DNA of 50,311 bases from a virus: positions 1-50,311 of IMG/VR virus record IMGVR_UViG_3300020385_000861. One strand, given 5' to 3'. Below are positions 9,087-32,487 of this stretch, in pieces. The position numbers and the translations under genes are program-made. Position 1 is the first letter of the stretch. Every line of letters begins with the position of its first letter. The notes beneath the pieces are model-generated. The model made no database searches. It was not told the DNA's origin and worked only from the letters and a program-made list of their open reading frames with translations.

Positions 9087-9118
9087 TATATGTATATTCG
9101 AATATAAAAATATACGCA

Positions 9119-16916: not shown

Positions 16917-17896
16917 AAGATAGTATAATTATATATGTTTCTTCTTACAACAATTATGATATGTTAGAAGAAGTAGTTTTAAAAAATATAAACACTGAGG
17001 GTTTTGAGTTTATAAATGTAGATGATAATAGTTTTCCAGAAGAATTAGAAAAAGGAAAATCAATATGTAAAAAGCACGGAATACAATGTTTAGAAAATAA
17101 ATCTACAGGAGTGCAAATGGCTACCCAAACAGTAATTGATTTTATAAATAAAAATAGACCTAAATGTAAATGGATAATTTGTTTTCAACATGATAATTGG
17201 CCTCTTAGTAAAGATTTTTTTACTACATTAAATAATATGATCATAAATGGCCCTATTAATGATTATGGTTGTATAGGATTTAATGTATTAGATAATGGTA
17301 AAAATACTAGAATCAATTCTGTAGAAAAATTTAAAAAAGACCTTTTACCCAGAGGCATGTTAGGTCATAGACATTTAAGTTACCTTTCTCCTAAACATAG
17401 ATGGATATCCCCCACCCATAATGATAATATGAGTAAGCACTATCATGAGTCCCATCAAAACAAATATGCATTTATCATAGATATTCCTACATGGGCAGTA
17501 ACAGGGTGGAATATAGAAAAATGGAATAAAATTATAGAACCAACAACAGATTTTAATTTTTTATTTTGGGCTCCTGATCTTATTATGCAATTTGCAAAAA
17601 ACAATATTCCAACTTTATCTATTACTAGTTTATATATTGAAAATTGTCAATCTATTAAAAAGAAGTATAATATCCCCGTCAATTTAACCCATGCTATAAA
17701 AAAAAATAGTAAAAAATATTCTCAAGAAAATTATGGTGAACATCATAAAAATTGGATTAAACGTTGGGGGTGGGATTTTGAAAATCCTGCTAAGACTTTT
17801 CCTAAAGTAAAAAACCAATATAAAAATACATTAATAAACAAACTATGGAAGCATAACTGTTCTTCAGACGCCCCCTATAAAATAATAGAATTATAA
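16913..17896 (+). CDS. GT2-like glycosyltransferase
   Basis: A 327-residue protein with a GT-A-like beginning (DSIIIYVSSYNNYDMLEEVV, then FINVDDNSFP) and WIICFQHDNWPLSKDF near residue 84, where QHDN may replace the usual DXD metal motif. The C-terminal third is basic and aromatic (WIKRWGWDFENPAK). Classification as GT2 is by overall pattern; the missing canonical DXD lowers certainty. Overlaps the previous gene by 4 bases. Confidence 0.6.
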   Translation: MKDSIIIYVSSYNNYDMLEEVVLKNINTEGFEFINVDDNSFPEELEKGKSICKKHGIQCLENKSTGVQMATQTVIDFINKNRPKCKWIICFQHDNWPLSKDFFTTLNNMIINGPINDYGCIGFNVLDNGKNTRINSVEKFKKDLLPRGMLGHRHLSYLSPKHRWISPTHNDNMSKHYHESHQNKYAFIIDIPTWAVTGWNIEKWNKIIEPTTDFNFLFWAPDLIMQFAKNNIPTLSITSLYIENCQSIKKKYNIPVNLTHAIKKNSKKYSQENYGEHHKNWIKRWGWDFENPAKTFPKVKNQYKNTLINKLWKHNCSSDAPYKIIEL

Positions 17897-17898
17897 TT

Positions 17899-18705
17899 AT
17901 GAGACATTTTTTTAATTACACATCTAAAGATTTAAATGAAAATTTAATAGAATCTCCTTTTCCTTACTTTTACGTAGATAATTTTATAAAAGAAGATCTA
18001 TTTAAAAATTTAAACTCAGAATTTAGACAACTAAAAGACAACAATAAGTTTCAATTTACAGTAGCAGAAACTCCTCGAGTAACCAGACCCAACGAACCAC
18101 ATGGATCTAGTTATTGTGTTGGAGGGGGTTTTGGAAATAATAAAGACACCTTTAATGAAATAACATCCCAAAGTCCTTTATGGGATAATTTTTTAACTGA
18201 ACTATATACAAATAAAAGTTATAAGTACTTTCATAATATATTTAAAGACAGTCTAACTTATAATAAAATAGTTACTAAAGAAATATACAATAATAGTAGT
18301 ATAGGTTGTAAAATGGGGTGCAATACGAATAATTATGGGGATATAATACACCCAGATAATTCTAAAAAAGTATTATCTTTTTTATTATATATGGATAATC
18401 CTGATTGGGGTAAAGACAATACAGGAGGCACTCAATTTTGGGAAGTTACAGATTCAGATATTTCTTATGATTGGAATGATACTAGTATAGATTCTCAATT
18501 AAGAAAAGGTAGATATAGTCAAAAAGTACATTCTTTAAACGAAGAAGAAGCAGAAAAAGTAAATTGTTTTCTTTCAGTAGATTTTAAACCTAATAGATTA
18601 GTGGGCTTTTTAAGAACTGATGATTCATATCATTCTATTTTACCTATGAAATTAAAAGAAGGAATAACTAGAAATTGTTTCCAAATAAATGTTTGGAGAA
18701 ACTAA
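17899..18705 (+). CDS. 2-oxoglutarate/Fe(II)-dependent oxygenase
   Basis: A 268-residue double-stranded beta-helix enzyme. The iron triad is visible: His151-x-Asp153 (IHPDN) and His245 (SYHSIL), with Arg258 (ITRNCF) placed to bind 2-oxoglutarate. The N-terminal PYFYVDNFIKEDLF is typical of prolyl-hydroxylase-like members found in LPS loci. It probably hydroxylates a sugar or a peptide side chain; hydroxylation could create a glycan attachment site (inference). Its end overlaps the wecB-like start by 17 bases. Confidence 0.82.
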   Translation: MRHFFNYTSKDLNENLIESPFPYFYVDNFIKEDLFKNLNSEFRQLKDNNKFQFTVAETPRVTRPNEPHGSSYCVGGGFGNNKDTFNEITSQSPLWDNFLTELYTNKSYKYFHNIFKDSLTYNKIVTKEIYNNSSIGCKMGCNTNNYGDIIHPDNSKKVLSFLLYMDNPDWGKDNTGGTQFWEVTDSDISYDWNDTSIDSQLRKGRYSQKVHSLNEEEAEKVNCFLSVDFKPNRLVGFLRTDDSYHSILPMKLKEGITRNCFQINVWRN

Positions 18706-19708
18706 TACATATGCACATATAGTAGCTGCTAGACCAAATTTTATAAAAGCAGCCCCTTTAATAGAAGAATTATCTAATAAAGGCTATAATAATATCATAA
18801 TTCATACAAATCAACATTATGATTATAAAATGTCTAAAATATTTTTTCAAGAACTAAATATTCCAGAACCTAATTACCATTTAGGTATAAAATCAGGTAC
18901 CCATGCCCAACAAACAGGCTATAGTTTAATTGAAATAGAAAAAGTTCTATTAAAAGAACAACCCCAAGCATTAATAGTTTATGGAGATGTTAATTCTACT
19001 CTTGCAGGTGCTTTAGCTGCTGTAAAATTACATATACCTATATTTCATATAGAATCAGGTTGTAGAAGTTTTGATACAAAAATGCCCGAAGAAATAAATA
19101 GAATATTAATTGACAATATATCAGATTTATTATTTTGTACTGAACAAAGTGCTTGTAATAATTTAGTTAATGAAGGTTTTAATAAAGATAAAATAAAATT
19201 AGTTGGAAATACTGCTATTGATACTCTACATAAAATTAATTTAAACAAAATTATAAATAAAGACTACTATTTATGTACTTTACATAGACCATTTAATGTA
19301 GATAATAAAAATATATTACACAAAATTTTATCTAAATTAAATAAATTGGGCAAAAAAATAATAATTCCCACTCATCCTAGATTAAAAAATAATCTAAACC
19401 ACACTTATAATAATATAGAATTTATTGAACCTTTAGGGTATCTAGATTTTATTAATTATTTAAAATGTAGTAAAGGAGCAATCTCAGATTCGGGTGGGAT
19501 ACAATGTGAAGCTGGTTTTTTAAATGTACCTTTATTAACATTAAGACCAACAACAGAACATTTGGTTACTTTAGAAAGAGGTAATACATTAGTAAATGTA
19601 GATAAAGATTTTATATTTCAAAAAAATCAACATACAGATATTCCTTTTATATGGGATGGTAACACATCTAAAAGAATAGTCAATATAATAGAAAATTATG
19701 ATACATAA
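18689..19708 (+). CDS. wecB: UDP-N-acetylglucosamine 2-epimerase (WecB-like)
   Basis: A 339-residue GT-B-fold epimerase. Signatures in order: HIVAARPNFIKAAPL, HTNQHYDYKMS, YGDVNSTLAGALAA, ESGCRSFDTKMPEEINR, VGNTAID, LHRPFNVDN, ISDSGGIQCEAGFLNVP and LRPTTEH, matching WecB in every block. It would convert UDP-GlcNAc to UDP-ManNAc. The upstream frame does not allow a much longer N-terminus; the ATG used overlaps the previous gene by 17 bases. It is slightly shorter than usual (~370). Confidence 0.92.
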   Translation: MFGETNTYAHIVAARPNFIKAAPLIEELSNKGYNNIIIHTNQHYDYKMSKIFFQELNIPEPNYHLGIKSGTHAQQTGYSLIEIEKVLLKEQPQALIVYGDVNSTLAGALAAVKLHIPIFHIESGCRSFDTKMPEEINRILIDNISDLLFCTEQSACNNLVNEGFNKDKIKLVGNTAIDTLHKINLNKIINKDYYLCTLHRPFNVDNKNILHKILSKLNKLGKKIIIPTHPRLKNNLNHTYNNIEFIEPLGYLDFINYLKCSKGAISDSGGIQCEAGFLNVPLLTLRPTTEHLVTLERGNTLVNVDKDFIFQKNQHTDIPFIWDGNTSKRIVNIIENYDT

Positions 19709-19744
19709 AACAGCTAACATCTAGGGTAACCCCGCAAAAGAAAT

Positions 19745-20614
19745 ATGAAAAAATTCGCTTTAATAGGAGCTAGTGGTTATATTGCCCCTCGACATGTAGA
19801 AGCTATTAAATACACTAATAACGAATTAGTTGCATTATTAGATCCCTATGATGGTATAGGATACATTGATCAATACTACCCTAATTCTTCATACTTTAAA
19901 GAACCTGAAAGATTTGATAGACATTTAGATAGACTTAGACGTAAAGGACAAGGTATAGATTATGTGTCTATATGTTCTCCTAATTATTTACATGATTCTC
20001 ACATTAGATTAGCTTTAAGAAATCAATGTAATGTTATATGTGAAAAACCATTAGTATTAATATATGAACATTTAGAAGCCCTAAAATCTATAGAAAAAGA
20101 AACAGGTAAGGTAATTAATACTATTTTACAACTTAGATATCACCCTACTATTAAAGCATTAAAAGAAAAATATTTAAATACTAATAAATTTCATAAAATA
20201 AGTATAGATTACATTACACCTAGAGGCTTATGGTATGATTATAGTTGGAAAGGTGATTTAGAAAAATCAGGTGGAGTAGCATCTAATATAGGTGTTCACT
20301 TTTTTGATATGTTATTATGGATTTTTGGGGATTTAAAAGATTTTGAATTTATTAATACTAATAAAACTTCAAGGGGAACATTAATCTTAGAGAATGCTGA
20401 AGTAAAATATAATTTAAGTATTCAAAAAGAAGACTTACCTTGGGATAGATGGAAACCCTTTAGATCTATAAAAATAAATAACAATGAATTAGAATTCTCA
20501 ACAGGTTTTACTGAATTACACAACATAAGTTATCAAGAAATTTTAAGGGGAAATGGTTTTACCCTAAAAGATATTGAACCCACAATTAAATTAATAGAAA
20601 AAATAAGATTATGA
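19745..20614 (+). CDS. Gfo/Idh/MocA-family oxidoreductase (WlbA/WbpB-like)
   Basis: A 289-residue NAD-dependent sugar dehydrogenase. FALIGASGYIAPRHVEAI is the nucleotide-binding turn, SICSPNYLHDSHIRLAL the next conserved strand, and CEKPLVL carries the catalytic Lys-Pro of the family. The closest type I recall is WlbA/WbpB, which oxidises UDP-GlcNAcA at C3 on the way to diaminouronic acids. The partner aminotransferase and acetyltransferase are not in this window. The 36-base gap before it is the largest inside this part of the block. Overlaps the next gene by 4 bases. Confidence 0.85.
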   Translation: MKKFALIGASGYIAPRHVEAIKYTNNELVALLDPYDGIGYIDQYYPNSSYFKEPERFDRHLDRLRRKGQGIDYVSICSPNYLHDSHIRLALRNQCNVICEKPLVLIYEHLEALKSIEKETGKVINTILQLRYHPTIKALKEKYLNTNKFHKISIDYITPRGLWYDYSWKGDLEKSGGVASNIGVHFFDMLLWIFGDLKDFEFINTNKTSRGTLILENAEVKYNLSIQKEDLPWDRWKPFRSIKINNNELEFSTGFTELHNISYQEILRGNGFTLKDIEPTIKLIEKIRL

Positions 20615-21969
20615 ATATAAAAAATGTACACAATGCATTTACAATAGTAGAAATTAATAAACACAAAATAGTATGTGACCCTTGGATTACTGAGGGGTTA
20701 TTTGATGGTACATGGGGAAAATTCCCCAAAATAGATAATATAGAAAAATACTTAAAAGGAACCACCCATTGTTTTATATCCCATGTTCATCAAGATCATA
20801 TGGATTTAGAAGCTATAAAACTTATGGATAAAAAAACAAAATTCTATATCCCAGACATATACCCTAATCATGTAATAAAAAACATACTAAATAATTTAGG
20901 CTTTAAAGAAATCTTAATGCTAAAACCTTTAGAAAGAACAGAAATTGAAAAAGAAATATTCTTTAATGTTATACCACCTATGAATGGTGGGGGGTTAGTT
21001 ATGGATAAAAAAGACGAAGCAGGTACGTTAGCACATTTATCAGTAGATGCAGGATTAGTTATAGAAAGAATATTTCAATCTCAAATTATTCATAACCAAA
21101 AAATAGTATTATTATCGGATAATGGACCTTACGAATTAAATGGCAATATACCACTAATCGAAGCAATGGAAGATGCAAATTTAATAGCATTTCCTTTTAA
21201 TGGAGTAGCTGATAATTATCCTGTATGTTTTTCTAATATGTCTTTTAAAGAAAAACAACAAGCATCTCTTAAAAGACAAGAAAATAGGACTGAATTACAA
21301 TCAAAATCTTTAAAAATACTTAACCCCCAACATCTTATACCTTATTCTTCTGATATGGTTATATTAGGCCCCAAAGCAAAAGACTTTGCAGACACACACC
21401 CTAAAGAATATATAGAAAGAAAAAGGGTAGCCCAGATATACGAAGAAAAAACAAGAATCCCCACACACGCAGTATGCTATAACAATAACATTATAATTAA
21501 AAATAATAAAACAATTATAGAAGGAGAATATAAAACGATTAATTTTAAAAAATATGCATATTCAAAGTACTCAGAAGAGATTAATCCTATTATAACACAC
21601 AAATCAATAAGTAAAACTTATTTAATTAAAAATTTTAAATTGTCGTGTAAAAATATGTTTTCAATGATGGATAAACTAAAATTATCATCTGAATGGATAT
21701 TACAATTTATAATTAGTGATTTAAAGATAACATTTAGTGTAAATTTAAAGACTAAAGAAATAATTTTAAAAAATGATCCAAATATATATAAAGAAAAAGT
21801 CCAAATATTAATTATCCCCTCAGGATATTTAAATAAACATTTTACTTTTCATCATCATTGGAATAATTCAATTATTTCCTATAATTTAGAGTGGAAAAGA
21901 ACTATAAATCAATATTGTGGTGGTTTAGATAGTGCTTTAAATTTTTTACATTTAAACCAAAATAAGTAA
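20611..21969 (+). CDS. Metallo-beta-lactamase-fold hydrolase in glycan cluster
   Basis: A 452-residue protein with the MBL metal motif His58-x-His60-x-Asp62-His63 (SHVHQDHMD), preceded by KIVCDPWITEG, as in UlaG-like and CMP-NeuAc-hydroxylase-like MBL proteins. The C-terminal ~150 residues form an additional domain without a family I recognise. Substrate unknown; MBL proteins of this type occur beside sugar-nucleotide genes. Overlaps both neighbours (4 bases and 1 base). Confidence 0.75.
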   Translation: MNIKNVHNAFTIVEINKHKIVCDPWITEGLFDGTWGKFPKIDNIEKYLKGTTHCFISHVHQDHMDLEAIKLMDKKTKFYIPDIYPNHVIKNILNNLGFKEILMLKPLERTEIEKEIFFNVIPPMNGGGLVMDKKDEAGTLAHLSVDAGLVIERIFQSQIIHNQKIVLLSDNGPYELNGNIPLIEAMEDANLIAFPFNGVADNYPVCFSNMSFKEKQQASLKRQENRTELQSKSLKILNPQHLIPYSSDMVILGPKAKDFADTHPKEYIERKRVAQIYEEKTRIPTHAVCYNNNIIIKNNKTIIEGEYKTINFKKYAYSKYSEEINPIITHKSISKTYLIKNFKLSCKNMFSMMDKLKLSSEWILQFIISDLKITFSVNLKTKEIILKNDPNIYKEKVQILIIPSGYLNKHFTFHHHWNNSIISYNLEWKRTINQYCGGLDSALNFLHLNQNK

Positions 21970-22910
21970 TGGAAATTTTAATAACAGGCGCAGCAGGTTT
22001 AATTGGTAGTCATTTATGTGATTCTTTAACCCGTAAAGGATATATTGTATCGGGTGTAGATAATTTATCATTTGGTAATATTAATAACATACCTAATAAT
22101 GTTGATTTTATAAAAGATGACATTACTTCATGGCAGTATCACCTTCATTGGAATAACTTTGAATATAAAAAATATGATGTGATTTTTCATCTAGCTTCTC
22201 TTAAAAAGGTATGGGATGGTAGTATTGCTTCAGCTGAAGTAATGGATGTTAATTATAATATGACAAAAGTATTAGTTAATAAATGCTTAACAGATGGCAG
22301 TAAGCTTATATTTGCATCTACATCAGACATATATGGTAATTCTACTTTTTTTAAGGAAGATGATAATATTACCATGGGTGCCCCCACCAATTTAAGATAT
22401 TCATATGCTTTATCAAAGTGGCACAGTGAACAATATATACTTAATTCTATTCAAGAAAGTAATTTACAAGCATGTATTGCAAGAATATTTGGATGTGCAT
22501 CTAACAGATCAAATAAAAGTTGGTCAGGGGGACATGTACCTCTTTTTATAGATTTAGCCATGAACAATAAAGAAATTATTATTCATGGTGATGGATCACA
22601 AACTAGATCTATATCTCATGCTAGTGATATAGCTGATGGTTTATCTGATCTTATTCCTATCAATAATGAAATTGTAAATTTAGGTACTGATCAAGAGACA
22701 ACAGTTAAGTATATTGCGGAATATGTAAAAGAAAAAGTAGGCTCTTTATCAAAAATTTCTTACGTTAATAAGGATAAAATCTTTGGTAATTATAATGAAA
22801 TACAAAGAAGATTTGCTAATACATCTAAAGCAAAACAATTAATAGATTATAAAGTTAATTATACAACAGAGCAAGTTGTAGATAGTATTATTGAAGCATG
22901 GCAAAAATAG
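21969..22910 (+). CDS. NAD-dependent sugar-nucleotide epimerase/dehydratase (SDR)
   Basis: A 313-residue extended SDR. GAAGLIGSHLCDSL is the NAD-binding GxxGxxG, FASTSDIYGN holds the catalytic Ser/Thr strand, and YSYALSKWHSE holds the Tyr-xxx-Lys pair. IHGDGSQTRSISHASDIADG is the conserved substrate-side block of GalE/WbpP-type enzymes. It would epimerise or dehydrate a UDP- or dTDP-sugar. Overlaps the next gene by 13 bases. Confidence 0.88.
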   Translation: MEILITGAAGLIGSHLCDSLTRKGYIVSGVDNLSFGNINNIPNNVDFIKDDITSWQYHLHWNNFEYKKYDVIFHLASLKKVWDGSIASAEVMDVNYNMTKVLVNKCLTDGSKLIFASTSDIYGNSTFFKEDDNITMGAPTNLRYSYALSKWHSEQYILNSIQESNLQACIARIFGCASNRSNKSWSGGHVPLFIDLAMNNKEIIIHGDGSQTRSISHASDIADGLSDLIPINNEIVNLGTDQETTVKYIAEYVKEKVGSLSKISYVNKDKIFGNYNEIQRRFANTSKAKQLIDYKVNYTTEQVVDSIIEAWQK

Positions 22911-23830
22911 CAGTTATCACCCCCATATCTCATTTAAATGGTATAGTTGATTTATTACATACTAAAGGTCAAGTATTTTATTTAGAAGAGGGTACTAAAA
23001 ATCAAGTTAGAAACTTACTATTATCTAATCATATAGATACTATAGTATGTAACCCTAATCAACAAACATATACGATAGATAAAAAATTATTAGAAAATAC
23101 TAAAGTTAAAACTATTAATTCATGCTCTACAGGATTAAACCATATTGATTTAGAGTACTGTAGGTTAAATAATATTGAAATACAATGCCATAAAAATGAT
23201 TACAAATTAATTAACGATTTACCCTCTACTTCAGAATTAGCATTTGGTCTTATGCTTTCTTTACTTAGAAATATTCCTGAATGTAATAATCATGTTTCAA
23301 GATACTATTGGGATTATACACAATTTGTAGGAAGACAAGTTAAAGATTTAACTATTGGTATAATAGGATATGGTAGATTAGGTAAAATGATGTGTAATTT
23401 TTGTGAAGCTTTTGGGGCAAATGTTAAAGTATATGACCCTTATATAGTTGGGTATACTCCACCAAATCCAATATCTTTAGAAAATATGTTTAAAAAATGT
23501 GATGTTATTTCACTTCATGTACATGTTACTGATAAAACAAAATATATGATTAATAAGAATTTACTTGGTTTAGCTAAAAAAGATTTGTATATTATTAATA
23601 CATCAAGAGGAGAAATAGTCAATGAAAATGATATAGTTAAGGCTTTAGAAAATAAAACATTAACAGGTTATGGAACTGATGTAATTGAAAATGAATTTGA
23701 TGATTTAACTAAATCTCCTATAATAAAAGCAATGAATGAAGGTAAAAATATTATAGTAACTCCTCATATAGGGGGTATGACAATAGAAGGCCAAACTAAA
23801 GCATATAAATGGTCAATTAATAAATTATAA
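22898..23830 (+). CDS. D-isomer-specific 2-hydroxyacid dehydrogenase
   Basis: A 310-residue protein of the phosphoglycerate dehydrogenase/lactate dehydrogenase type. IGIIGYGRLGKMMCNF is the NAD-binding turn. NTSRGEIVN carries the substrate-binding Arg, DVIENEF the Glu, and TPHIGGMT the catalytic His, so the Arg-Glu-His set is complete. In LPS loci such enzymes can make or use a hydroxy-acid for a modified sugar; the actual substrate is unknown. It overlaps the previous SDR gene by 13 bases. Confidence 0.87.
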   Translation: MAKIAVITPISHLNGIVDLLHTKGQVFYLEEGTKNQVRNLLLSNHIDTIVCNPNQQTYTIDKKLLENTKVKTINSCSTGLNHIDLEYCRLNNIEIQCHKNDYKLINDLPSTSELAFGLMLSLLRNIPECNNHVSRYYWDYTQFVGRQVKDLTIGIIGYGRLGKMMCNFCEAFGANVKVYDPYIVGYTPPNPISLENMFKKCDVISLHVHVTDKTKYMINKNLLGLAKKDLYIINTSRGEIVNENDIVKALENKTLTGYGTDVIENEFDDLTKSPIIKAMNEGKNIIVTPHIGGMTIEGQTKAYKWSINKL

Positions 23831-23831
23831 A

Positions 23832-24650
23832 ATGGATCCAATATTTAAAAAAATACCAAATGACAATTGGCTAACAGATTTAGATCAATATAGAATTAAA
23901 GAGAAACCATTATTACCCAAAAAGCCAAAAAATAAAGGCTGGTACTGTAAAGGACCTTGGTATAGTGATGATGGGGAAGACGGAATATTAGATTATTTAT
24001 TTGAGTATATAAATGATGTAAATAAATACGCTGTAGACATTGGCTCAGCTCATGGTTATGGGGGAAGTCATGTTAGATATTTAGCTGATAAATATGGTTG
24101 GGGGACTACTGAAATAGATGGGAAGAGGTGGAAAAGAATGCACCCAAGAATTAAAAATGAAATAATAACACCTAATAACATATGTGAATTATTAACTAAA
24201 TATGAGACCCCTAAAAACTTTGATTTATTATCATTAGATATTGATAGTATGGATTGGTATGTGTTAGAAAAATTATTATTAGGTGATTTTAGACCCTCTG
24301 TAGCTATAGTTGAGTTTAATCCTATTTTTGAATATAATGAAGGGTATGTAGTAAAATATGATAAAACCTATAAAAAAGATGGAACCTCCCAATATGGGGC
24401 CTCTGCTAAAGCATATGAAATGTTAATGAATAAATATAATTATACTTTAGTACATATATTTCCTAAAGAAGTAAATAACCTTTTATTTATCTCTAATAAC
24501 TTTATATTACCTACAATAATCGTAGATACTATTAAAAATATGCATTCTAAATCTTATATTGAACATCATAAAATTAAGGGAAACAAAAAAAATTATATAT
24601 CTAAAGAAAATTTAATAAAAAATAAATTTAATAAATTAACCCAAATATGA
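23832..24650 (+). CDS. FkbM-like methyltransferase or Rossmann-fold protein
   Basis: A 272-residue protein. AVDIGSAHGYGGSHVRYLAD (residues ~58-77) looks like methyltransferase motif I, TTEIDGKRW like the following acidic strand, and FDLLSLDIDSMDWYVLEKL (near 133) like the DID-D segment of FkbM-type O-methyltransferases. The N-terminus (WYCKGPWYSDDGEDGILDYL) is characteristic of a set of LPS-locus proteins. The Gly-rich loop is less regular than usual, so cofactor binding is not certain. Overlaps the next gene by 4 bases. Confidence 0.6.
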   Translation: MDPIFKKIPNDNWLTDLDQYRIKEKPLLPKKPKNKGWYCKGPWYSDDGEDGILDYLFEYINDVNKYAVDIGSAHGYGGSHVRYLADKYGWGTTEIDGKRWKRMHPRIKNEIITPNNICELLTKYETPKNFDLLSLDIDSMDWYVLEKLLLGDFRPSVAIVEFNPIFEYNEGYVVKYDKTYKKDGTSQYGASAKAYEMLMNKYNYTLVHIFPKEVNNLLFISNNFILPTIIVDTIKNMHSKSYIEHHKIKGNKKNYISKENLIKNKFNKLTQI

Positions 24651-25207
24651 TAAAACCATTTATAATAATTCCAGCTAAAGGTGACTCTAAAAGATTAGTA
24701 GGTAAAAACAAAAGAACTATAGCAGGTAAAACACTACTTGAACATTCTATAGAATATGCACAAAAATCTAAATTAGCAACTACTATAATAGTTTCAACAG
24801 AAGATGAAGTAACTAAAACAATAGCTGAAGCTTACGGAGTAAGAGTGGTTGGGAGAAGTAAGGATTTTATGGGTGAAAGAGAAGTAGCTGATGTATATAT
24901 TAAAATCTTTAAAGAGTATGGACATAATAATTTTACACATGTAGTAGGTATACAACCTGACCACCCTGACAGAACAATACCTTTAGATAAAATGTTAACA
25001 TATGCAGTAGAAAATAAATATGATGATTTATTTACAGTAGATCCTGATGGTACCAGAAATGGTTCAATTAGAATTACAAAAGCAGAACATGTTAATATAG
25101 GAGCTATGAGTAGAAGAGTAGGTAGTATGATGGATGATTGTACTAATATCCACAGTGAGCAAGATTTATTAAAAGCAGAAAAAAATATAAATGAACGAGT
25201 ACATTAA
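24647..25207 (+). CDS. Cytidylyltransferase (NeuA/KdsB-type)
   Basis: A 186-residue nucleotidyltransferase. IIPAKGDSKRLVGKNKRTIAG is the CTP-binding loop of CMP-sugar synthetases (IPARxxSKxxxxKN), and QPDHPDRTIP plus the closing TNIHSEQDLLKAE also fit the family. It is short (NeuA ~230, KdsB ~250) because the central insertion is reduced. It would activate an acidic 3-deoxy sugar with CMP. The next gene is a DAHP/KDO8P-synthase-like enzyme and overlaps it by 17 bases, so both probably act on the same product. Confidence 0.83.
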   Translation: MIKPFIIIPAKGDSKRLVGKNKRTIAGKTLLEHSIEYAQKSKLATTIIVSTEDEVTKTIAEAYGVRVVGRSKDFMGEREVADVYIKIFKEYGHNNFTHVVGIQPDHPDRTIPLDKMLTYAVENKYDDLFTVDPDGTRNGSIRITKAEHVNIGAMSRRVGSMMDDCTNIHSEQDLLKAEKNINERVH

Positions 25208-26033
25208 ATTATTAAAAGAGCAAGGTAAGTTAAATATATCAATTGATAAAACTAAAGAGTTTAATTGGAGATATACTAAAATAGCAGGACCCTGTTCTGT
25301 AGAAGGTCCTGAAATAATAGATATTGCTAAAAAAATTAAATCATTAGGTGCAAATGCTTTTAGAGCAGGTGCTTATAAACCATGTACTTACCCTATTTTA
25401 AAAGAGACTAATGGTTGGAAAGAAGGATTAAGAGAAGAAGGACTAAGATTATTACAACAAGTAAAAGAAGAAACTAATCTACCTATTGTAACTGAAGTTA
25501 TGGATGCTAGTATGATAGAAGAAGTATCACAAGTAGCAGATGTATTTCAAATAGGTACTCGAAATTTTCAAAATTATACTTTGTTAGATGCTTTAGGTAA
25601 ATGTAATACCCCAGTTTTACTAAAAAGAGGTACATGGGGTACTATAGATGAAATATTAGGTGCATGTGAACGAATTTTAGTAGGGGGTAATGATAATATA
25701 GCTATATGTTTAAGAGGAGTAGTTGGTATGCCTAATTACAGACATGTATTTCCTACTATTAGATGGGCTCCTGATTTAATGATGATACCTGCATTAAAAG
25801 AATTAACAAATATCCCTATTATATTTGATCCTAGCCACTCAACAGGGTATAGAAATTTTGTAGAACCAATGTCAAAAGCAGCCATAGCAGCGGGGGCGGA
25901 TGGTTTAATAATTGAATGTCATCCTGAACCCGATAATTCAATTAGTGACCCCGCACAAGCAATAGATTACATTACATTAGAAAAAATTTTAAATAGTACT
26001 AAACCAAATAATATGGACAGACGATATGGATGA
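25191..26033 (+). CDS. DAHP/KDO8P-synthase-family 3-deoxy-ulosonate synthase
   Basis: A 280-residue TIM-barrel aldolase using PEP. GPCSVEG (Cys35) supplies the metal-binding Cys, FDPSHSTG the His, and ECHPEPD the Glu and Asp. The overall text (EVMDAS, GTRNFQNYTLL, KRGTWGTIDE, CLRG) is closest to the short Bacillus/Bacteroidota-type DAHP synthase. The E4P-binding KPRT motif reads Lys63-Pro-Cys-Thr here, so the sugar-phosphate specificity may differ. Coupled to a cytidylyltransferase, it likely makes a CMP-activated ulosonic acid and not a shikimate intermediate (inference). Confidence 0.83.
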   Translation: MNEYIKLLKEQGKLNISIDKTKEFNWRYTKIAGPCSVEGPEIIDIAKKIKSLGANAFRAGAYKPCTYPILKETNGWKEGLREEGLRLLQQVKEETNLPIVTEVMDASMIEEVSQVADVFQIGTRNFQNYTLLDALGKCNTPVLLKRGTWGTIDEILGACERILVGGNDNIAICLRGVVGMPNYRHVFPTIRWAPDLMMIPALKELTNIPIIFDPSHSTGYRNFVEPMSKAAIAAGADGLIIECHPEPDNSISDPAQAIDYITLEKILNSTKPNNMDRRYG

Positions 26034-26679
26034 TAATGTAAGTATTATAATTAGAAACAGAAATGAAAATGAATTTATTGGGTTTGCAATCCAATCATGT
26101 TTAGACCATTTTAATAAACCAGAAATTATAATTGTAGACAATAATTCTACAGATGATTCTTTACATACAGTAAATTTATTTAAAGATAGAACTACAATTA
26201 AAATTGTTCCTATTAATGATTATACCCCGGGTAAATCAATTAATTTAGGAGCCAAACACGCTACTAAAGATACAATTTTAGTGTTGTCCGCTCATGCACA
26301 AATTACTCAAGTTGATCTAGAATTAATAGAACTTAATTTAACCCCAGCTGGTAGTGCTGTAGCTGTATTTGGTCAACAAACCCCTATATATAAAGGTAAA
26401 AAAATATCAAAAAGATATATTTGGAGTCATTTTAAAGAAGGACGTGAAATAAATATGTTTTCAAAAATAGAAAACAGACAGTTTTTACATAATGCGTTTT
26501 GCTTTTATAATAGACAATTTCTATTAAATAACCCTATGCCTGAAGATTACTCTACTAAAGAAGACAGATATTGGGCTATAGATATGGTAGATAAAGGATA
26601 TAATTATTATTACAACTCTACACATAAAGCTAATCACTTTTATACATCTAATGGTGCAACTTGGAAAGGAATAGGGTAA
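26026..26679 (+). CDS. GT2-family glycosyltransferase
   Basis: A 217-residue GT-A enzyme. VSIIIRNRNENEFIGFAIQS and IIVDNNSTDDSL are the standard GT2 nucleotide-binding blocks. A LSAHAQI segment takes the place of DXD, and MPEDYSTKEDRYWAIDM near residue 168 contains the ED catalytic-base region. Overlaps the previous gene by 8 bases. Followed by a 43-base AT-rich gap, one of the few breaks in the block. Confidence 0.82.
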   Translation: MDDNVSIIIRNRNENEFIGFAIQSCLDHFNKPEIIIVDNNSTDDSLHTVNLFKDRTTIKIVPINDYTPGKSINLGAKHATKDTILVLSAHAQITQVDLELIELNLTPAGSAVAVFGQQTPIYKGKKISKRYIWSHFKEGREINMFSKIENRQFLHNAFCFYNRQFLLNNPMPEDYSTKEDRYWAIDMVDKGYNYYYNSTHKANHFYTSNGATWKGIG

Positions 26680-26687
26680 TATATTTA
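26680..26687 (+). promoter_or_regulatory. Possible weak promoter -7 box before 26723
   Basis: TATATTTA stands at the start of the 43-base gap before the gene at 26723. A TTGG is present upstream at 26661-26664, but the spacer is 16, not 20, and the base before the box is A, not G. It does not belong cleanly to the promoter set of the flanks. It is the only candidate I see for internal transcription of the glycan block. Confidence 0.25.
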
Positions 26688-26722
26688 AAGATTAATATAA
26701 AAATAACATAACATAAATTACA

Positions 26723-28144
26723 ATGCATTATTCACCTATAAGTTTAGAGTATTTTTTAAATATGGAAATCCAACATGGAGGTGGAGGTAAAGAAATAATC
26801 CACCAAAATGGTAGTTTAACAAAAATACAAGATATTGTTAATTATTTTAAGACACCTCATCATATTAATAAAACCAAATCTGATTTAAATCCCACTAACT
26901 GGCAATACTTTAATTGCATGTTAGCAGAATTTAGACATAATGTTAAAAATCACCATGATTTAGGTTGGGAAAACATGACCGAAGAATATTATAACAGTCT
27001 AACCCCTATGTCAGATTTAGAAATACAACAGTTTTTAAAACAAAATCCCGTAGAATTTGATAATGGTTTTATTAGACATAACTATCATAGAGCATGTGCT
27101 ATGATTGGTAGACTTATTGGGGGTAAATCCTATATCCCTTTCTATATGGAAACTGAGCAAATATACAATAAACCCAGAAAAAAAGATGGAATTCATAGAA
27201 TTAAACCATTAACTAATAAAATTAAATTATTAGAAAAAATGGATAAAATGGGAATAGATAAAAATGATTATTGTTTGACCCAAAGTTCTATTTTAAGTAT
27301 AATGGGTATTAGAGATAATGATGATTTAGATATTATCATTTCAAGTAAATTAAGAAACCAAAATATACAATTTCCTCCTGGTGTGGATGTATTTGCAGCT
27401 AATAGAGGAAAGTTTAATTATTTCGGAGCTAAAGGAGATGATGATATATTAGAAAATTATTGTATTACAATTAATGGTTATAAATTTTTAGAACCTAGAT
27501 TTTATTTTGCTCGTAAAAATAGAACAACTAAAAGAGACATTAATGATTGGAAATCTATAGAATCGTTTTTTAATAATAATAATCATAAAGGACACCCTTT
27601 TAATTTTGATTTTTACAAATGGGGAATAAATTATGTGGATAAAATCCAATATGAGGATTTAGAACACCAAAACAGAGATTTAAAAGTTATTATAAATAAA
27701 TTTAATAGAACAGTAAATAATATATCTCATGGTAGAAATGTTTATTATGATATTAATAACAAAGAATACATCAAAATCTTTAATCTAGATTATTGTCGTT
27801 TAAATAACTTTAATGAAGCTTTGAACTCAGGAATCCTAGTAGGATTATGCCCTGCTTTAAAAACACTAATATATCATGGGGATCAATTAATGGGTTATAT
27901 CTGTCAAGAAGGAAAAGTATGTAATGAAATCCCCCAAGATTTTTTAACTACTATATTAAAAAACTGTAGGAAATGGAATAAAATATATTATGATATAGTA
28001 CCCCAAAATATAATTCAATTACCTAATGGTCAATATAGTCTAATTGATTTAGAAAGTGTTTATGATTTGGATAAATTAGATATATTACCTTATCACAATG
28101 CTCAAATAAAACCCCCAAATCTTTTAGAACTAATAAATAATTAA
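26723..28144 (+). CDS. Nucleotidyltransferase-like plus kinase-like fusion protein
   Basis: A 473-residue protein with three recognisable parts. Residues 1-150 hold IRHNYHRACAMIGRLIGG and IPFYMET, family unknown to me. Residues ~185-270 look like a nucleotidyltransferase: TQSSILSIMGIRDNDDLDII with an Asp-x-Asp pair, then TKRDINDWKSIESFF. Residues ~330-455 look like a protein-kinase/APH fold: YYDINNKEYIKIF (beta-3 Lys), FNEALNSG (helix C Glu), YDIVPQNIIQL (catalytic loop Asp and Asn) and YSLIDLE (metal-binding Asp). Together it could phosphorylate and activate a small sugar or alditol. Interpretation is by motif only. Confidence 0.6.
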   Translation: MHYSPISLEYFLNMEIQHGGGGKEIIHQNGSLTKIQDIVNYFKTPHHINKTKSDLNPTNWQYFNCMLAEFRHNVKNHHDLGWENMTEEYYNSLTPMSDLEIQQFLKQNPVEFDNGFIRHNYHRACAMIGRLIGGKSYIPFYMETEQIYNKPRKKDGIHRIKPLTNKIKLLEKMDKMGIDKNDYCLTQSSILSIMGIRDNDDLDIIISSKLRNQNIQFPPGVDVFAANRGKFNYFGAKGDDDILENYCITINGYKFLEPRFYFARKNRTTKRDINDWKSIESFFNNNNHKGHPFNFDFYKWGINYVDKIQYEDLEHQNRDLKVIINKFNRTVNNISHGRNVYYDINNKEYIKIFNLDYCRLNNFNEALNSGILVGLCPALKTLIYHGDQLMGYICQEGKVCNEIPQDFLTTILKNCRKWNKIYYDIVPQNIIQLPNGQYSLIDLESVYDLDKLDILPYHNAQIKPPNLLELINN

Positions 28145-28145
28145 T

Positions 28146-28910
28146 ATGAATATAGTATTTATCCCTAATATAGATTTAGGAAACAATAGAAACACACCTT
28201 ACCATTATTCTATTTCTAGTTGGAAAAAATGGGCAGAACAATACGATGATGTTGAAGTTATAGAGTGGGATGAAGCTATTATGGATCCTAACCAATTTAA
28301 AATAACATTGCAACGTTATTGGGTTCATGATATATTAAAACATAATGAAGTAGAATATGAACAAGTATTATTAGTGGATGCTGATACTATTATCCATCCT
28401 AATTGTCCTAATTTTTTCAACCAAACAGAAGGTAAATTTGGGGTAACACTTAATAATGGATGTTATGAATGGGTTACTAGAAGTATTAAACAATGGGGAG
28501 ATAATTTATTTACAAATGAACCTAAAGTTAAACCTTGGAAATACTTTAATGGGGGCTTTCAGATAACAAGTAAAAAACATATACCCTTTTATACAAAAGT
28601 CCAAGAATATTATACTAATAACATAAATAAAATAAACCAATTAAATGAACAAATAAAAGCAGGAACCGACCAAACTATTATAAATTATTTGGCTCAGCAA
28701 AATTCTATTGATACAATATATATGCCTGAAGCCTATAATCTTCAAGATTTATTTAGAAAAAACCTTCTATATATTCCAGGACATTCTTGGTTTCCCGATG
28801 ATTTAATATTTTTAGAAGCAGGGTGGATCTATCATTTTAACGCTATACCCCAAAATGATAGACATGTAAATTATTGGATGGAAAGAACATATAAAGAATT
28901 ATATAAATAA
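28146..28910 (+). CDS. GT8-like glycosyltransferase
   Basis: A 254-residue GT-A enzyme. LLVDADTIIHPN near residue 77 has the DXD motif, YFNGGFQITSKKH near residue 137 matches the conserved FNxG substrate block, GTDQTIINYL near residue 174 is the GxDQ motif of GT8-type enzymes, and WIYHFNA near the end holds the C-terminal metal-binding His. This is a good motif set for a retaining GT-A transferase. Its stop overlaps the first copy of an 11-base tandem repeat. Confidence 0.78.
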   Translation: MNIVFIPNIDLGNNRNTPYHYSISSWKKWAEQYDDVEVIEWDEAIMDPNQFKITLQRYWVHDILKHNEVEYEQVLLVDADTIIHPNCPNFFNQTEGKFGVTLNNGCYEWVTRSIKQWGDNLFTNEPKVKPWKYFNGGFQITSKKHIPFYTKVQEYYTNNINKINQLNEQIKAGTDQTIINYLAQQNSIDTIYMPEAYNLQDLFRKNLLYIPGHSWFPDDLIFLEAGWIYHFNAIPQNDRHVNYWMERTYKELYK

Positions 28911-28930
28911 AAATTAAACAAAAATTAAAC
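28909..28930 (+). repeat. Tandem 11-base repeat before methyltransferase gene
   Basis: Two exact copies of AAAAATTAAAC (28909-28919 and 28920-28930) lie between the stop at 28910 and the ATG at 28933. They are probably a slippage duplication of the AT-rich intergenic leader. No promoter box is visible here. Confidence 0.8.
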
Positions 28931-28932
28931 AA

Positions 28933-29541
28933 ATGAAATTAAAAAAACTAGAATCATATAAGGATTATTATGATGCTCAAAACAAAAGAAGTGGGATGAA
29001 AGCATCTCAAATAAATCTTAAATTAATTATGGACTTATTTAATCTTGAATCTGAAGATAAAGATATAAATATTTTAGATATTGGATGCAGAGATGCTACT
29101 GCAGTAAGTTTTTTACATAATAAAGGTTTTAAAAATACTTTTGGTTTTGATATAGGTAAACGAGCTAAAGAAACTTGGGATAGTATATATGATAAAGAAT
29201 TTATAGATAATTATTTAACAATAGGGGATGTTCATAAAGGCATACCATATGACAAGAAATTCCATTTAATATTATCATCACATGTAATAGAGCATTTATA
29301 TGATGCCCCCCAAGCAATAGAACATATGTACACTCATTTAATACCAGGTGGATTTTTATTTACTCAAGTACCTATACAACCTGAAGAAAGATTTTTAAAT
29401 GCTAAGCCCCATTATTATATGTTTGATAATATGAAGGATTATATATCATTATTTGATGATACTAAATTTAAAGTAGTACATCAAGAAGAAGGATTTAAAG
29501 CAGCTAATCCTGAAGCTACATTAGTATTACAAAAGTTATAA
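28933..29541 (+). CDS. SAM-dependent methyltransferase (class I)
   Basis: A 202-residue methyltransferase. NILDIGCRDATAVSFL near residue 44 is SAM motif I, FGFDIGKRA the acidic motif II, HLILSSHVIEHLYDAP the motif IV region, and LIPGGFLFTQVP the motif VI turn typical of Methyltransf_11/UbiE-like enzymes. It probably methylates a sugar or a nucleotide-linked intermediate of the glycan pathway. Confidence 0.85.
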   Translation: MKLKKLESYKDYYDAQNKRSGMKASQINLKLIMDLFNLESEDKDINILDIGCRDATAVSFLHNKGFKNTFGFDIGKRAKETWDSIYDKEFIDNYLTIGDVHKGIPYDKKFHLILSSHVIEHLYDAPQAIEHMYTHLIPGGFLFTQVPIQPEERFLNAKPHYYMFDNMKDYISLFDDTKFKVVHQEEGFKAANPEATLVLQKL

Positions 29542-29543
29542 AT

Positions 29544-30443
29544 ATGAAAATAGCATTTTTCACAGAAGGGGGATACCAAGGCAAAGTACCCAGAAACCAT
29601 CCTAATATGAGAACTGAATTAGCATGGATGTGTGCTTTAAATGCTGATCATTGGAATATAAACCAACCACCTAACCAACAATATGATTTAGGTATTGTTA
29701 TTATACCAAAGAAAAATCCCCAATTTGATTTAAACAAACTAAAGCAATATTGCAACAAAATAACAGTAATGCAAGAGGGACCAAATTGGTATTGGCAAGA
29801 TTATCCTTTAAACCAACAGATATGGTATTATAATACTATTCAAGAAGCCGATTTTATGTTTGTGCATAATGAATTAGATAAAAAGTACTATGAAGGCCTA
29901 ACAGGTAAAGAATGTAAAGTTTTACCTAGTTTAATGATTGAAGATTCTATTAATGATTTACCCCAAATTGAGAGAAAAAATATTATTATAGGAGGAAATT
30001 TTTGTAGTTGGTATGGTGGTTTTGACTCATATATAACCGCACAAGAAGCTGAATGTCCTATTTATATTCCTAGTATGGGAAGAAAGATAGATGGTGAAGA
30101 AAATATGCCCGAATTAAATCATTTATCATATATGAATTGGGTCGAATGGATTAAAACGCTTAATACTTTCAAGTATGGTGTCCATATGATGCGCACGCAT
30201 GCCGCGGGTACATTCGCTTTAAATTGCGCTTATTTAGGTATTCCTTGTATTGGGTATGAAGGTTTGGATACACAAGAAAAATGCCACCCGAATTTAACAG
30301 TTAAGTTAGGAGATTTGGTTTCTGCAAAAGAAAAACTTACATTACTCAAAACAGATAAAGATTTTTATAATGAATGTACTTTTTCTGCAAAAGAAAATTA
30401 TTTAAGGTATAATGAAAAAACTTTTATAGATAAATGGAAATAA
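29544..30443 (+). CDS. Putative GT-B-like glycosyltransferase
   Basis: A 299-residue protein. MKIAFFTEGGYQGKVPR resembles the start of GT-B transferases. The C-terminal half (YGVHMMRTHAAGTFALNCAYLGIPCIGYEG) resembles their donor domain, with a conserved Gly-Thr before a Pro-Cys turn. The sequence from ~30170 to 30230 uses codons rare elsewhere in the block (CGC, ACG, GCC, GCG), giving a local GC rise inside an AT-rich gene. Overlaps the next gene by 10 bases. Confidence 0.55.
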   Translation: MKIAFFTEGGYQGKVPRNHPNMRTELAWMCALNADHWNINQPPNQQYDLGIVIIPKKNPQFDLNKLKQYCNKITVMQEGPNWYWQDYPLNQQIWYYNTIQEADFMFVHNELDKKYYEGLTGKECKVLPSLMIEDSINDLPQIERKNIIIGGNFCSWYGGFDSYITAQEAECPIYIPSMGRKIDGEENMPELNHLSYMNWVEWIKTLNTFKYGVHMMRTHAAGTFALNCAYLGIPCIGYEGLDTQEKCHPNLTVKLGDLVSAKEKLTLLKTDKDFYNECTFSAKENYLRYNEKTFIDKWK

Positions 30444-31672
30444 GTTTAATACAACCTGGAAGAAATAATCTTAAGTATCTTAAATGGTCTTATGATTCAA
30501 TTAGAAGAAACCAAGGCAACCACGAAGTAGAAATATGTGTTGCAGATGATTTTTCAAATGATGGTACTTGGGATTGGTGTCAAGAAATGATGGAAAAAGA
30601 TCCATTATTTAAAGCAATTAGAAATGAAGGACCTACACGTTTAGGTCATACAATTTTATATGACACTTTAGTTAATGAAGTAGCTACAAAAGATATTTGT
30701 ATGATTTACCATGCAGATATGTACTTAATGCCAAATGCTATGGATTCAATTGAAAAACATCTTATAGATAAAACAATTGTATCACTTACTAGAATAGAAC
30801 CACCACTTCATCCAGATGGTCCCGAAAAAATCCTTATTGATTTTGGAATTGAGCCTGAAGAATTTAGAGAAGATGATTTATTAGAATGGTTTACTAAACC
30901 AATTGACTCAACAGGTGGGTATCAACCTAAACATGATAGTCCTACTGAAGGTATATTTGCACCTTGGGCGTTTTATAAAAAAGATTTTCAAGAAATAGGG
31001 GGTCATGATCCCATATTTGCCCCACAATCAAAAGAAGATACTGATATATTTAACCGTTTTCAATTAAATGGAATCAAATTTATTCAAACATGGGAAGGAT
31101 GTGTTTATCATATGACTTGTAGAGGTAGTAGATTTGCTGATGGGGCAAAACGAAATCCTAATGGTGATGTGTTTATGAAAAATAGAGAAACAGATGAATG
31201 GTTAAAACAAAATCAAAAATCAACTAGAGAATTTTTACGTAAATGGGGTCATTATTGTAAGCATGATCCTTTAATGAAACCAATTATACCACCTAAATAT
31301 GATATTGGTTTTATAATTAAAAATTGTAATGATCAATTACTAGCAACTTTAGAACCATGGTGTAGTAATATTTATGTGGATGAAGGAAATATCCCCTCAA
31401 TGATTGATAATTACATAACATTAGAATCCCCAAATACAAATTTTGATTTATATGAAAGAATAAGACTTTTTGATGATAAAAAAAATAATGAAATTCTAGT
31501 TACAATAGATGGTAATAGAGTTACACAACAAGATTTTCAATATATTCAACAATTATCTGAAATATTAGCTGATAGTGGTGAACCAGGATTTCATGGTGAG
31601 TTAGGAAATTTAGTAGTTGAAATATTTGAAACAATGAATACATTTGAAAAAGAATTAATATGCGTATCTTAG
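30434..31672 (+). CDS. GT2-family glycosyltransferase, long form
   Basis: A 412-residue protein. The first ~230 residues are GT2 (EISLIQPGRNNLKYLKWS, CVADDFSNDGTWDWCQ, MIYHADMYLMPNAM with a HADM metal site, then FAPWAFYKKDFQEIGGHD). The last ~150 residues (from IGFIIKNCNDQLLATLEPW) form a second domain I cannot name. CGT arginine codons reappear here, as in the genes before 12.6 kb. It ends overlapping the next start by 13 bases. Confidence 0.78.
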   Translation: MEISLIQPGRNNLKYLKWSYDSIRRNQGNHEVEICVADDFSNDGTWDWCQEMMEKDPLFKAIRNEGPTRLGHTILYDTLVNEVATKDICMIYHADMYLMPNAMDSIEKHLIDKTIVSLTRIEPPLHPDGPEKILIDFGIEPEEFREDDLLEWFTKPIDSTGGYQPKHDSPTEGIFAPWAFYKKDFQEIGGHDPIFAPQSKEDTDIFNRFQLNGIKFIQTWEGCVYHMTCRGSRFADGAKRNPNGDVFMKNRETDEWLKQNQKSTREFLRKWGHYCKHDPLMKPIIPPKYDIGFIIKNCNDQLLATLEPWCSNIYVDEGNIPSMIDNYITLESPNTNFDLYERIRLFDDKKNNEILVTIDGNRVTQQDFQYIQQLSEILADSGEPGFHGELGNLVVEIFETMNTFEKELICVS

Positions 31673-32487
31673 TAACAGGTGGTGCTGGTTTTGTAGGCAC
31701 AAATCTAATAAAGCGATTAGTATCACAAGGACATAAAGTTACATCTTATGACAATTATACTACAGGTAAGAAAGAAAATCATATTGAGGGGTGTGATTAT
31801 TACGATGTTGATATAACAACATGTACCTTTGAAGTTGATTTTGATATTGTTTTCCACATGGCGGCAATAGCTAGAATACAACCTTCATTTGAACACCCTG
31901 AAAAATATATTGATGTAAATTTTAATGGAACTTATGAAATAGTTAAATATTGTTCTAAAAATAATATTCCTTTAATATATGCGGGTAGTTCATCACACCA
32001 TTCAGGTAAATTTAAAAACCCTTATACATTTAGTAAAGATTTAGGAGAAGAAATTATTAAATTATATCAAGAACATTTTAATTTAAAGGCATCAATAGCT
32101 AGATTCTATAATGTATATGGTCCTTATCAACTAACAGAGGGGGGTTATACTACATTGATTGGTAGATGGTTAAAAAATATTGAGAAAGGGTTACCTTGTG
32201 AAATATACGGAGACGGTAGTAAACGAAGAGACTTTACTCATGTAGATGATATTATAGAAGCTTTAATTAAGATAGTAGATAGAGAGAAGTATGGGTACAT
32301 ATTTGAATTAGGCAGAGGAAAAAACATTACAGTTAACGCCGTAGCTAATCTGTTAAATATTAAACCAATTTATAAAGCAGATAAACCTGGAGAAGCGTTT
32401 GCAACTTTAGCTGATAGAACAGAAGCAAGATTACATTTAGAATGGGATGCAAAAATTAATTTAGAAGATTATATAAAAACATTATGA
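31660..32487 (+). CDS. NAD-dependent epimerase (GalE/UDP-glucuronate epimerase-like SDR)
   Basis: A 275-residue extended SDR. RILVTGGAGFVGTNLIKRL is the GxxGxxG NAD site, AGSSSHHSGKFKNPYTFSK holds the Ser and the Tyr-xxx-Lys pair, and FYNVYGPYQ and EIYGDGSKRRDFTHVDDI are the conserved substrate blocks. It is shorter than GalE (~330), with reduced loops. The UDP-glucose dehydrogenase gene overlaps it by 4 bases, so a UDP-glucuronate epimerase or decarboxylase role is plausible. Confidence 0.87.
   Translation: MRILVTGGAGFVGTNLIKRLVSQGHKVTSYDNYTTGKKENHIEGCDYYDVDITTCTFEVDFDIVFHMAAIARIQPSFEHPEKYIDVNFNGTYEIVKYCSKNNIPLIYAGSSSHHSGKFKNPYTFSKDLGEEIIKLYQEHFNLKASIARFYNVYGPYQLTEGGYTTLIGRWLKNIEKGLPCEIYGDGSKRRDFTHVDDIIEALIKIVDREKYGYIFELGRGKNITVNAVANLLNIKPIYKADKPGEAFATLADRTEARLHLEWDAKINLEDYIKTL

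Follow-up and report, generated by a model that had tools for sequence, protein, structure and literature searches.

A DAHP-synthase-like enzyme with a KPCT motif alternates with NeuB in cytidylyltransferase cassettes of marine phages

Overlapping genes for a cytidylyltransferase and a KPCT synthase

We analyzed two overlapping genes in a viral DNA record of 50,311 bases (IMG/VR record IMGVR_UViG_3300020385_000861; the whole stretch is called the window here). The downstream gene encodes a protein of the 3-deoxy-D-arabino-heptulosonate 7-phosphate (DAHP) synthase fold in which the KPRT motif reads KPCT (KPCT synthase), and the upstream gene encodes a cytidylyltransferase. With genes for a 2-hydroxyacid dehydrogenase and a family 2 glycosyltransferase (GT2), they form a four-gene cassette (Table 1). 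An initial annotation had described the 17-base overlap and had assigned the upstream product to the cytidine monophosphate (CMP)-sugar synthetase type. The overlap is confirmed by the positions of the open reading frames (ORFs), and the upstream protein matches Pfam CTP_transf_3 and is nearest in fold to CMP-N-acetylneuraminate (CMP-NeuAc) synthetases. The same overlap occurs in three related loci (L001, L004, and L016), and five others (L003, L005, L006, L008, and L011) overlap by 4 bases. The window carries T4-like genes, including those for a clamp loader, a DNA ligase, and GroEL, and the nearest relatives of its clamp loader, at about 40% identity, are those of marine viruses and of Prochlorococcus and Pelagibacter phages. 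The phage-encoded GroEL chaperonin gene lies at 2389-4050 (phrog_5725, 546.7 bits).

Table 1. Cassette genes and synthase features in the window
Feature	Position	Strand	Basis
D-2-hydroxyacid dehydrogenase, cassette gene 1	22898..23830	+	Pfam 2-Hacid_dh_C 152.8 bits
Cytidylyltransferase ORF, cassette gene 2	24647..25207	+	186 aa; Pfam CTP_transf_3 65.3 bits, cut-off 22.6
DAHP-synthase-fold synthase, cassette gene 3	25191..26033	+	280 aa; Pfam DAHP_synth_1 182.3 bits, cut-off 25.5
Overlap of genes 2 and 3, 17 bases	25191..25207	+	ORF coordinates
KPCT motif, residues 63-66, Cys65 replacing the Arg that contacts erythrose 4-phosphate	25377..25388	+	Alignment to 1ZCO/1VS1; role of Arg from passages of PMC6362186
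β2-α2 loop with insert, ILKETNGWKEG, residues 69-79	25395..25427	+	6 residues longer than in 1ZCO/1VS1
β6-α6 loop with insert, RGVVGMPNYRHVFPTIR, residues 175-191	25713..25763	+	6 residues longer than in 1ZCO/1VS1
GT2-type glycosyltransferase, S-A-H where DxD is expected, cassette gene 4	26026..26679	+	Pfam Glycos_transf_2 60.3 bits

Active site of the KPCT synthase

The best matches of the synthase among PDB sequences are type Iβ DAHP synthases (1ZCO, 4C1K, and 1VS1; E ≈ 1e-54). In this alignment the window protein has KPCTY where the template has KPRTS. Its structural model (predicted local distance difference test score, pLDDT, 83.4) gave a Foldseek template modeling (TM) score of 0.78 to 1VS1 and 1RZM. 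The protein scores below the NCBIfam cut-offs for DAHP synthases (240.3 against 267.75 for TIGR01361, and 272.1 against 335 for PRK08673). It matches Pfam NeuB slightly over the cut-off (24.1 against 22.1 bits), compared to 182.3 bits for DAHP_synth_1 (PF00793). A Pfam scan of the 280-residue synthase found neither a SAF domain nor a regulatory domain of the ACT or chorismate mutase type.

Passages of PMC6362186 give C36, H206, E232, and D243 as the metal ligands of a type Iβ DAHP synthase, R60, K65, Q116, S119, R120, K141, and R171 as the residues that bind phosphoenolpyruvate (PEP), and R67, T68, and D243 as those that bind erythrose 4-phosphate (E4P). In the alignment with PDB sequences, these correspond in the window synthase to C35, H216, E242, and D253 (metal), R58, K63, Q120, T123, R124, K145, and R175 (PEP), and C65, T66, and D253 (E4P). 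Passages of PMC5526877 and PMC6435475 hold no description of E4P contacts. We aligned 20 relatives, the window protein included; L012 was dropped here, and from the tree and linkage counts below, because its aldolase is identical to that of L011. C35, R58, K63, Q120, R124, K145, R175, H216, E242, and D253, which are the metal and PEP set minus T123, are invariant in all 20, as is T66; at position 65, 19 rows have Cys and one (L018) has Ala. The alignment thus confirmed the earlier description of an enzyme with intact PEP and metal residues whose KPRT reads KPCT. Because KPCT is found in 19/20 relatives (KPAT in 1/20) and the gene pair recurs in 13/13 distinct viral loci, neither the motif nor the pairing is attributable to chance.

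The β2-α2 and β6-α6 loops are named as substrate-binding parts in a passage of PMC12202928. Relative to 1ZCO and 1VS1, the window synthase has 6 additional residues after KPCT and 6 after the RG of β6, and both stretches are conserved in the clade: W76, E78, and G79 in the β2-α2 loop and G179, P181, R184, and H185 in the β6-α6 loop are invariant in the 20 rows. The retention of the PEP residues, the loss of the E4P arginine, and the loop inserts together imply that the PEP half of the active site is intact and that the acceptor half has been rebuilt. The structural model is poorly confident in both loops, most of all in β6-α6, and it therefore does not reveal an acceptor.

Phylogeny and distribution of the KPCT motif

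A genome scan with the patterns [AG]GAYKPCT and Q[VI]GTRNFQ returned 22 loci, six of which belong to the phage clade (clade A). Ten others (L021-L029 and L036; labeled Armatimonadetes, Chthonomonas/Chthonomonadales, or "bacterium") encode longer proteins, in which the motif reads KPCTSPY and the loops are ordinary, and their genomes, where searched, additionally hold KPST or KPRT forms. The synthase tree comprised 63 rows (L012 and L008 were left out, as were L024, L026, L027, L031, and L036 as near repeats or a fragment). In it the phage clade of 19 rows is supported at 100/99; a larger group that also takes in the sister clade B and the long branch L013 is separated from all ordinary DAHP synthases at 99/99. 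The 3-deoxy-D-manno-octulosonate 8-phosphate (KDO8P) synthases separate from the synthase clade at 100/100. L013 is a viral contig whose DAHP-synthase-like protein (8279-9091) lacks KPRT and reads GGIFSAGTYPGDKFG; a cytidylyltransferase-like protein is encoded about 1.3 kb upstream of it.

The initial annotation had proposed that Cys in this motif might mark a separate clade, and had named grouping with Cys-bearing shikimate DAHP synthases as the contrary outcome. Such enzymes exist in the Armatimonadota and group elsewhere, with KPST forms (88/74, not starred) and apart from the phage clade, so that Cys at the KPRT site arose more than once. The clade is therefore separate and distinct from shikimate DAHP synthases, as had been supposed, but Cys was rejected as its marker, since Armatimonadota DAHP synthases outside the clade carry KPCT and the clade member L018 has Ala.

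Among catalogued phages, the best tblastn matches to the synthase are below 60% identity, mostly unannotated, and labeled as Listeria, Enterococcus, or Staphylococcus phages; these look like ordinary host-type DAHP synthases. The cytidylyltransferase gave one weak match among the catalogued phages.

Conservation of the four-gene cassette

Linkage was counted in 13 distinct viral loci, excluding the window and the duplicate L012, with "near" defined as within 3.5 kb of the synthase gene. The cytidylyltransferase gene is near in 13/13 loci and the 2-hydroxyacid dehydrogenase gene in 12/13. The cassette GT2 gene is present in all 13 loci (in L038 only as a fused form at 22% identity) and near in 10. 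None of the other window genes from 9 to 34 kb, glycan genes included, is near the synthase gene in more than 4/13 loci. These counts support the cytidylyltransferase linkage and the glycan context reported earlier.

The cytidylyltransferase model (pLDDT 92.3) has its best fold matches in CMP-NeuAc synthetases, and the protein scores under every NCBIfam equivalog cut-off. D105 is invariant and aligns with the Asp of QGDEP in KdsB. A C-terminal IHSExDL stretch has His169 in 17/17 cytidylyltransferase rows (site mapped by eye), at what we take to be the position of the second metal Asp of KdsB. In the dehydrogenase, R237, E266, and H290, presumably the catalytic three, are identical in 45/45 aligned rows. 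All 48 cassette GT2 rows (the window and 47 further) read S-[AGS]-H at what we take to be the DxD site, and a control GT2 of the window has HAD there. DxD normally holds the metal for a nucleoside diphosphate donor, and CMP-sialic acid transferases manage without it; a cassette GT2 lacking DxD would therefore fit a CMP donor. The GT2 gave no match to the sequences of solved structures.

Fusions join the cytidylyltransferase to GT2 in L037 and L038, and to the dehydrogenase in L017, L018, and L207 (on the contig of the Elusimicrobia member). Between the fusion gene and the synthase gene, L017 and L018 encode a sugar-acid dehydratase of the enolase superfamily and a second dehydrogenase; this dehydratase may hint at the origin of the acceptor. 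The nearest model to the dehydratases (L017 7922-9058 and L018 4881-6017, the latter recognized by position and sequence start) is galactarate/talarate dehydratase, below its cut-off. Elsewhere in the window, a 452-aa protein encoded at 20611-21969 has no Pfam match at 0.01; it has look-alikes in L007 (54%) and in L119, a NeuB cassette in which a 451-aa protein with a similar start is encoded directly before the dehydrogenase.

Exchange of the KPCT synthase with NeuB

Viral contigs were scanned with a cytidylyltransferase alignment built from KPCT loci only, and 44 loci were obtained. A KPCT synthase is encoded in 14 of these and a NeuB-family protein in 29; the two never occur together in a locus, and the contig of L099 stops short of the synthase position. 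The KPCT synthase thus occupies the slot that NeuB fills in related phages. NeuB proteins were recognized by their tblastn matches to a single NeuB-like protein from L017 (E at most 4e-18), and Pfam confirmed the five tested of the 29. The order dehydrogenase, cytidylyltransferase, synthase, and GT2 is kept in 11/14 KPCT loci and 24/29 NeuB loci.

After filtering to less than 97% identity, 35 cytidylyltransferases remained (13 with KPCT synthases, 21 with NeuB, and one with neither), and the tree comprised 39 rows. Synthase type changes at least four times on this tree, compared to a mean of 12.7 when types were shuffled, and all four changes are forced by well-supported (starred) branches. 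Two KPCT loci (L128 and L136) lie within sets of NeuB loci, and a third, L109, has the NeuB locus L139 as its sister. Read most simply, this pattern suggests that the KPCT and NeuB synthases would feed the same downstream enzymes.

The cytidylyltransferase is fused to NeuB in two viral contigs (L126 5974-7590, 538 aa; L134 5986-7554, 522 aa). A SAF domain is present in the NeuB proteins of L126, L134, and L139, but L119 and L112 encode short NeuB proteins that lack it. In L139 (3561-5939), a domain resembling amine oxidases and UDP-galactopyranose mutases is fused to NeuB with SAF (792 aa).

Cellular members and sister clade B

Six clade A members come from cellular records: two metagenome-assembled genomes (L015, on a 3.3 kb contig that is probably viral, and L019, Elusimicrobia) and four single amplified genomes (L016, Bacteroidetes; L017, Pelagibacteraceae; L018, Alphaproteobacteria; and L020, Synechococcus, on a 201 kb contig). 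Four genome searches added none, each returning one genome that was already known (1/299, 1/397, 1/385, and 1/198). Clade members scored at least 440 bits in these searches and other matches at most about 255 bits; of the latter, 11 from the 397 genomes and 7 from the 299 were read further. Among host-type genomes, G003 and G004 have a second DAHP synthase of type II, and G006 has one of type Iα with KPRTT.

Clade B, in which the motif is KPLT and the metal Cys is replaced by Asn, occurs in Prochlorococcus-Synechococcus and Pelagibacterales (6/299 genomes of the Synechococcus order and 11/397 of the Pelagibacterales order). KPLT was seen in 9/11 Pelagibacterales copies, and the other two lie outside the search pattern. 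Neighbors in the 11 Pelagibacterales stretches include AroE-like genes (11), Gfo/Idh genes (10), cytidylyltransferase genes (10), and GT2::cytidylyltransferase fusions (7). Because clade B also lies in glycan-type cassettes, the whole A+B lineage looks dedicated to them. In the clade B glycan clusters of picocyanobacteria and Pelagibacterales (L081-L086 and L184-L194), the KPLT/GPN DAHP-synthase-like gene is accompanied by AroE-like, Gfo/Idh, cytidylyltransferase, and GT2::cytidylyltransferase genes, and a shikimate-dehydrogenase-like gene thus adjoins it.

A proposed pathway and its alternatives

We consider it rather probable that the KPCT synthase is a PEP-dependent 3-deoxy-2-ulosonate synthase that uses an aldehyde other than E4P, and that its product is CMP-activated and transferred by the GT2 into a glycan, so that the enzyme does the job of NeuB. 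The synthase would have derived from type Iβ DAHP synthases and would condense PEP with an acceptor, for which an aldose or aldehydo acid without a phosphate group is the most likely candidate. The adjoining cytidylyltransferase would couple the product to CMP, the adjoining GT2 would add it to a glycan, either one encoded by the phage or one on the host surface, and the dehydrogenase would belong to this pathway too, where it would probably help to make the acceptor at an earlier step. The genomic context is the strongest argument for this pathway; the gene fusions, the additional DAHP synthases of G003, G004, and G006, and the score below the TIGR01361 cut-off also speak for it. The separate clade, the cytidylyltransferase linkage, the glycan context, and the NeuB slot point to a 3-deoxy ulosonic acid that is not DAHP, as the initial annotation had suggested, and this product is one that we infer rather than observe.

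Several results weigh against this pathway. His169 stands where a second metal Asp is expected, so that the activity of the cytidylyltransferase could differ. The dehydrogenase is absent from the L038 locus, and the pathway leaves its role unexplained. In the Elusimicrobia member, the gene for the cytidylyltransferase::dehydrogenase fusion (44% across 566 aa) and the synthase gene share a contig but are about 60 kb apart. KPCT is also present in Armatimonadota DAHP synthases, whose loops are ordinary, and loss of the Arg therefore need not end E4P use. Finally, in the draft genomes G002 and G005, whose completeness is not established, chorismate synthase was found and another DAHP synthase was not, which leaves room there for a role in the shikimate pathway.

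It is unlikely that the synthase still uses E4P and makes DAHP, which would be CMP-activated for the glycan as such or after dephosphorylation by the host. The KPCT synthase exchanges with NeuB, and the known NeuB members act on unphosphorylated sugars; moreover, the Arg is lost in 20/20 relatives and both acceptor-side loops carry inserts. The four conserved genes include no phosphatase, nor is one named for the window proteins at 15912-33335 that were scanned with Pfam. Such an enzyme would accord with the closest solved relatives being DAHP synthases, with the retention of Thr66 and Asp253 out of the three E4P contacts listed in the passages of PMC6362186, and with the Armatimonadota KPCT enzymes, which have ordinary loops and may well use E4P.

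A role as an auxiliary metabolic DAHP synthase, supplying the host shikimate pathway in infection, seems improbable. Family membership at the Pfam level and the two draft genomes in which the gene is accompanied by no other DAHP synthase found (G002 and G005) speak for it, but the synthase lies in a separate clade, is strictly linked to glycan genes, exchanges with NeuB, and lacks an ACT or chorismate mutase domain, and G003, G004, and G006 have other DAHP synthases. We give still less credence to a variant KDO8P synthase that makes Kdo 8-phosphate or Kdo (3-deoxy-D-manno-octulosonate). Although KDO8P synthases are the next nearest PDB family (78.5 bits compared to 188.5 for DAHP synthases), this identity was rejected on the TIGR01362 score (102.7 against a cut-off of 314) and the tree separation given above, and the KANR[ST] motif is absent (KPCTY). 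Phage loci L002 (10788-11594, directly downstream of the KPCT synthase gene) and L005 (5684-6496) encode a separate KDO8P-synthase-like protein, and therefore Kdo there would come from another gene.

If the favored 3-deoxy-ulosonate pathway is correct, the enzyme that opens the shikimate pathway has at least once been turned to making acidic sugars for glycans, in abundant ocean microbes as well as in their phages, and a single pathway can take either of two dissimilar synthases. The loci would offer a clean test system, in which the same cytidylyltransferase family and GT2 are partnered with either NeuB or a DAHP-synthase type. More tentatively, clades A and B in marine phages, SAR11, and picocyanobacteria may make undescribed 3-deoxy-ulosonic acids from unphosphorylated aldehydes (for example, on a route to acids of the heptulosaric type), which a divergent cytidylyltransferase would CMP-activate and a metal-independent, DxD-less GT2 would transfer, with phages swapping the synthase with NeuB and so varying the same glycan position. 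Such a GT2 would be, to our knowledge, the first of its family to use CMP-sugars. Acidic sugars would join what phages can place on host surfaces, and such changes may bar competing phages. According to passages of PMC7029224, the hypervariable region of pelagimyophages holds glycosyltransferase genes, for which changes of the host O-chain against coinfection are suggested; such modification would be the likeliest use of the cassette sugar.

Comparison with known systems

CMP-ulosonate synthesis as such is already known; our searches of the open-licence literature yielded no description of an enzyme or pathway of the present type, and no published function for clade B. Clade B is sister to clade A at 99/99 and likewise has a cytidylyltransferase and a GT2::cytidylyltransferase fusion. 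It differs in the Asn that replaces the metal Cys, in KPLT, and in Gfo/Idh and AroE-like genes that replace the 2-hydroxyacid dehydrogenase gene. The cassette cytidylyltransferase shares the N-terminal nucleotide-binding signature and the fold of CMP-Kdo, CMP-NeuAc, and CMP-pseudaminic acid (CMP-Pse) synthetases (PF02348), but it is short (186 aa), falls below the equivalog cut-offs, and has His169. Type Iβ DAHP synthases (TIGR01361; 1ZCO, 1VS1, and 1RZM) have the same fold, the same metal and PEP residues, and about 40% identity to the window synthase in structural alignment. In contrast to them, the clade reads KPCT[YF] in place of KPRTS and has longer β2-α2 and β6-α6 loops, and the window synthase falls below the family cut-off, lies in its own clade, and stands in a glycan cassette. 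Pfam places the KPCT synthase in DAHP_synth_1 and finds no SAF domain, unlike the NeuB/SiaC/PseI family (PF03102), with which it nevertheless shares a gene position that adjoins the cytidylyltransferase and precedes the GT2, and probably also the PEP-dependent ulosonate synthesis that is known for NeuB.

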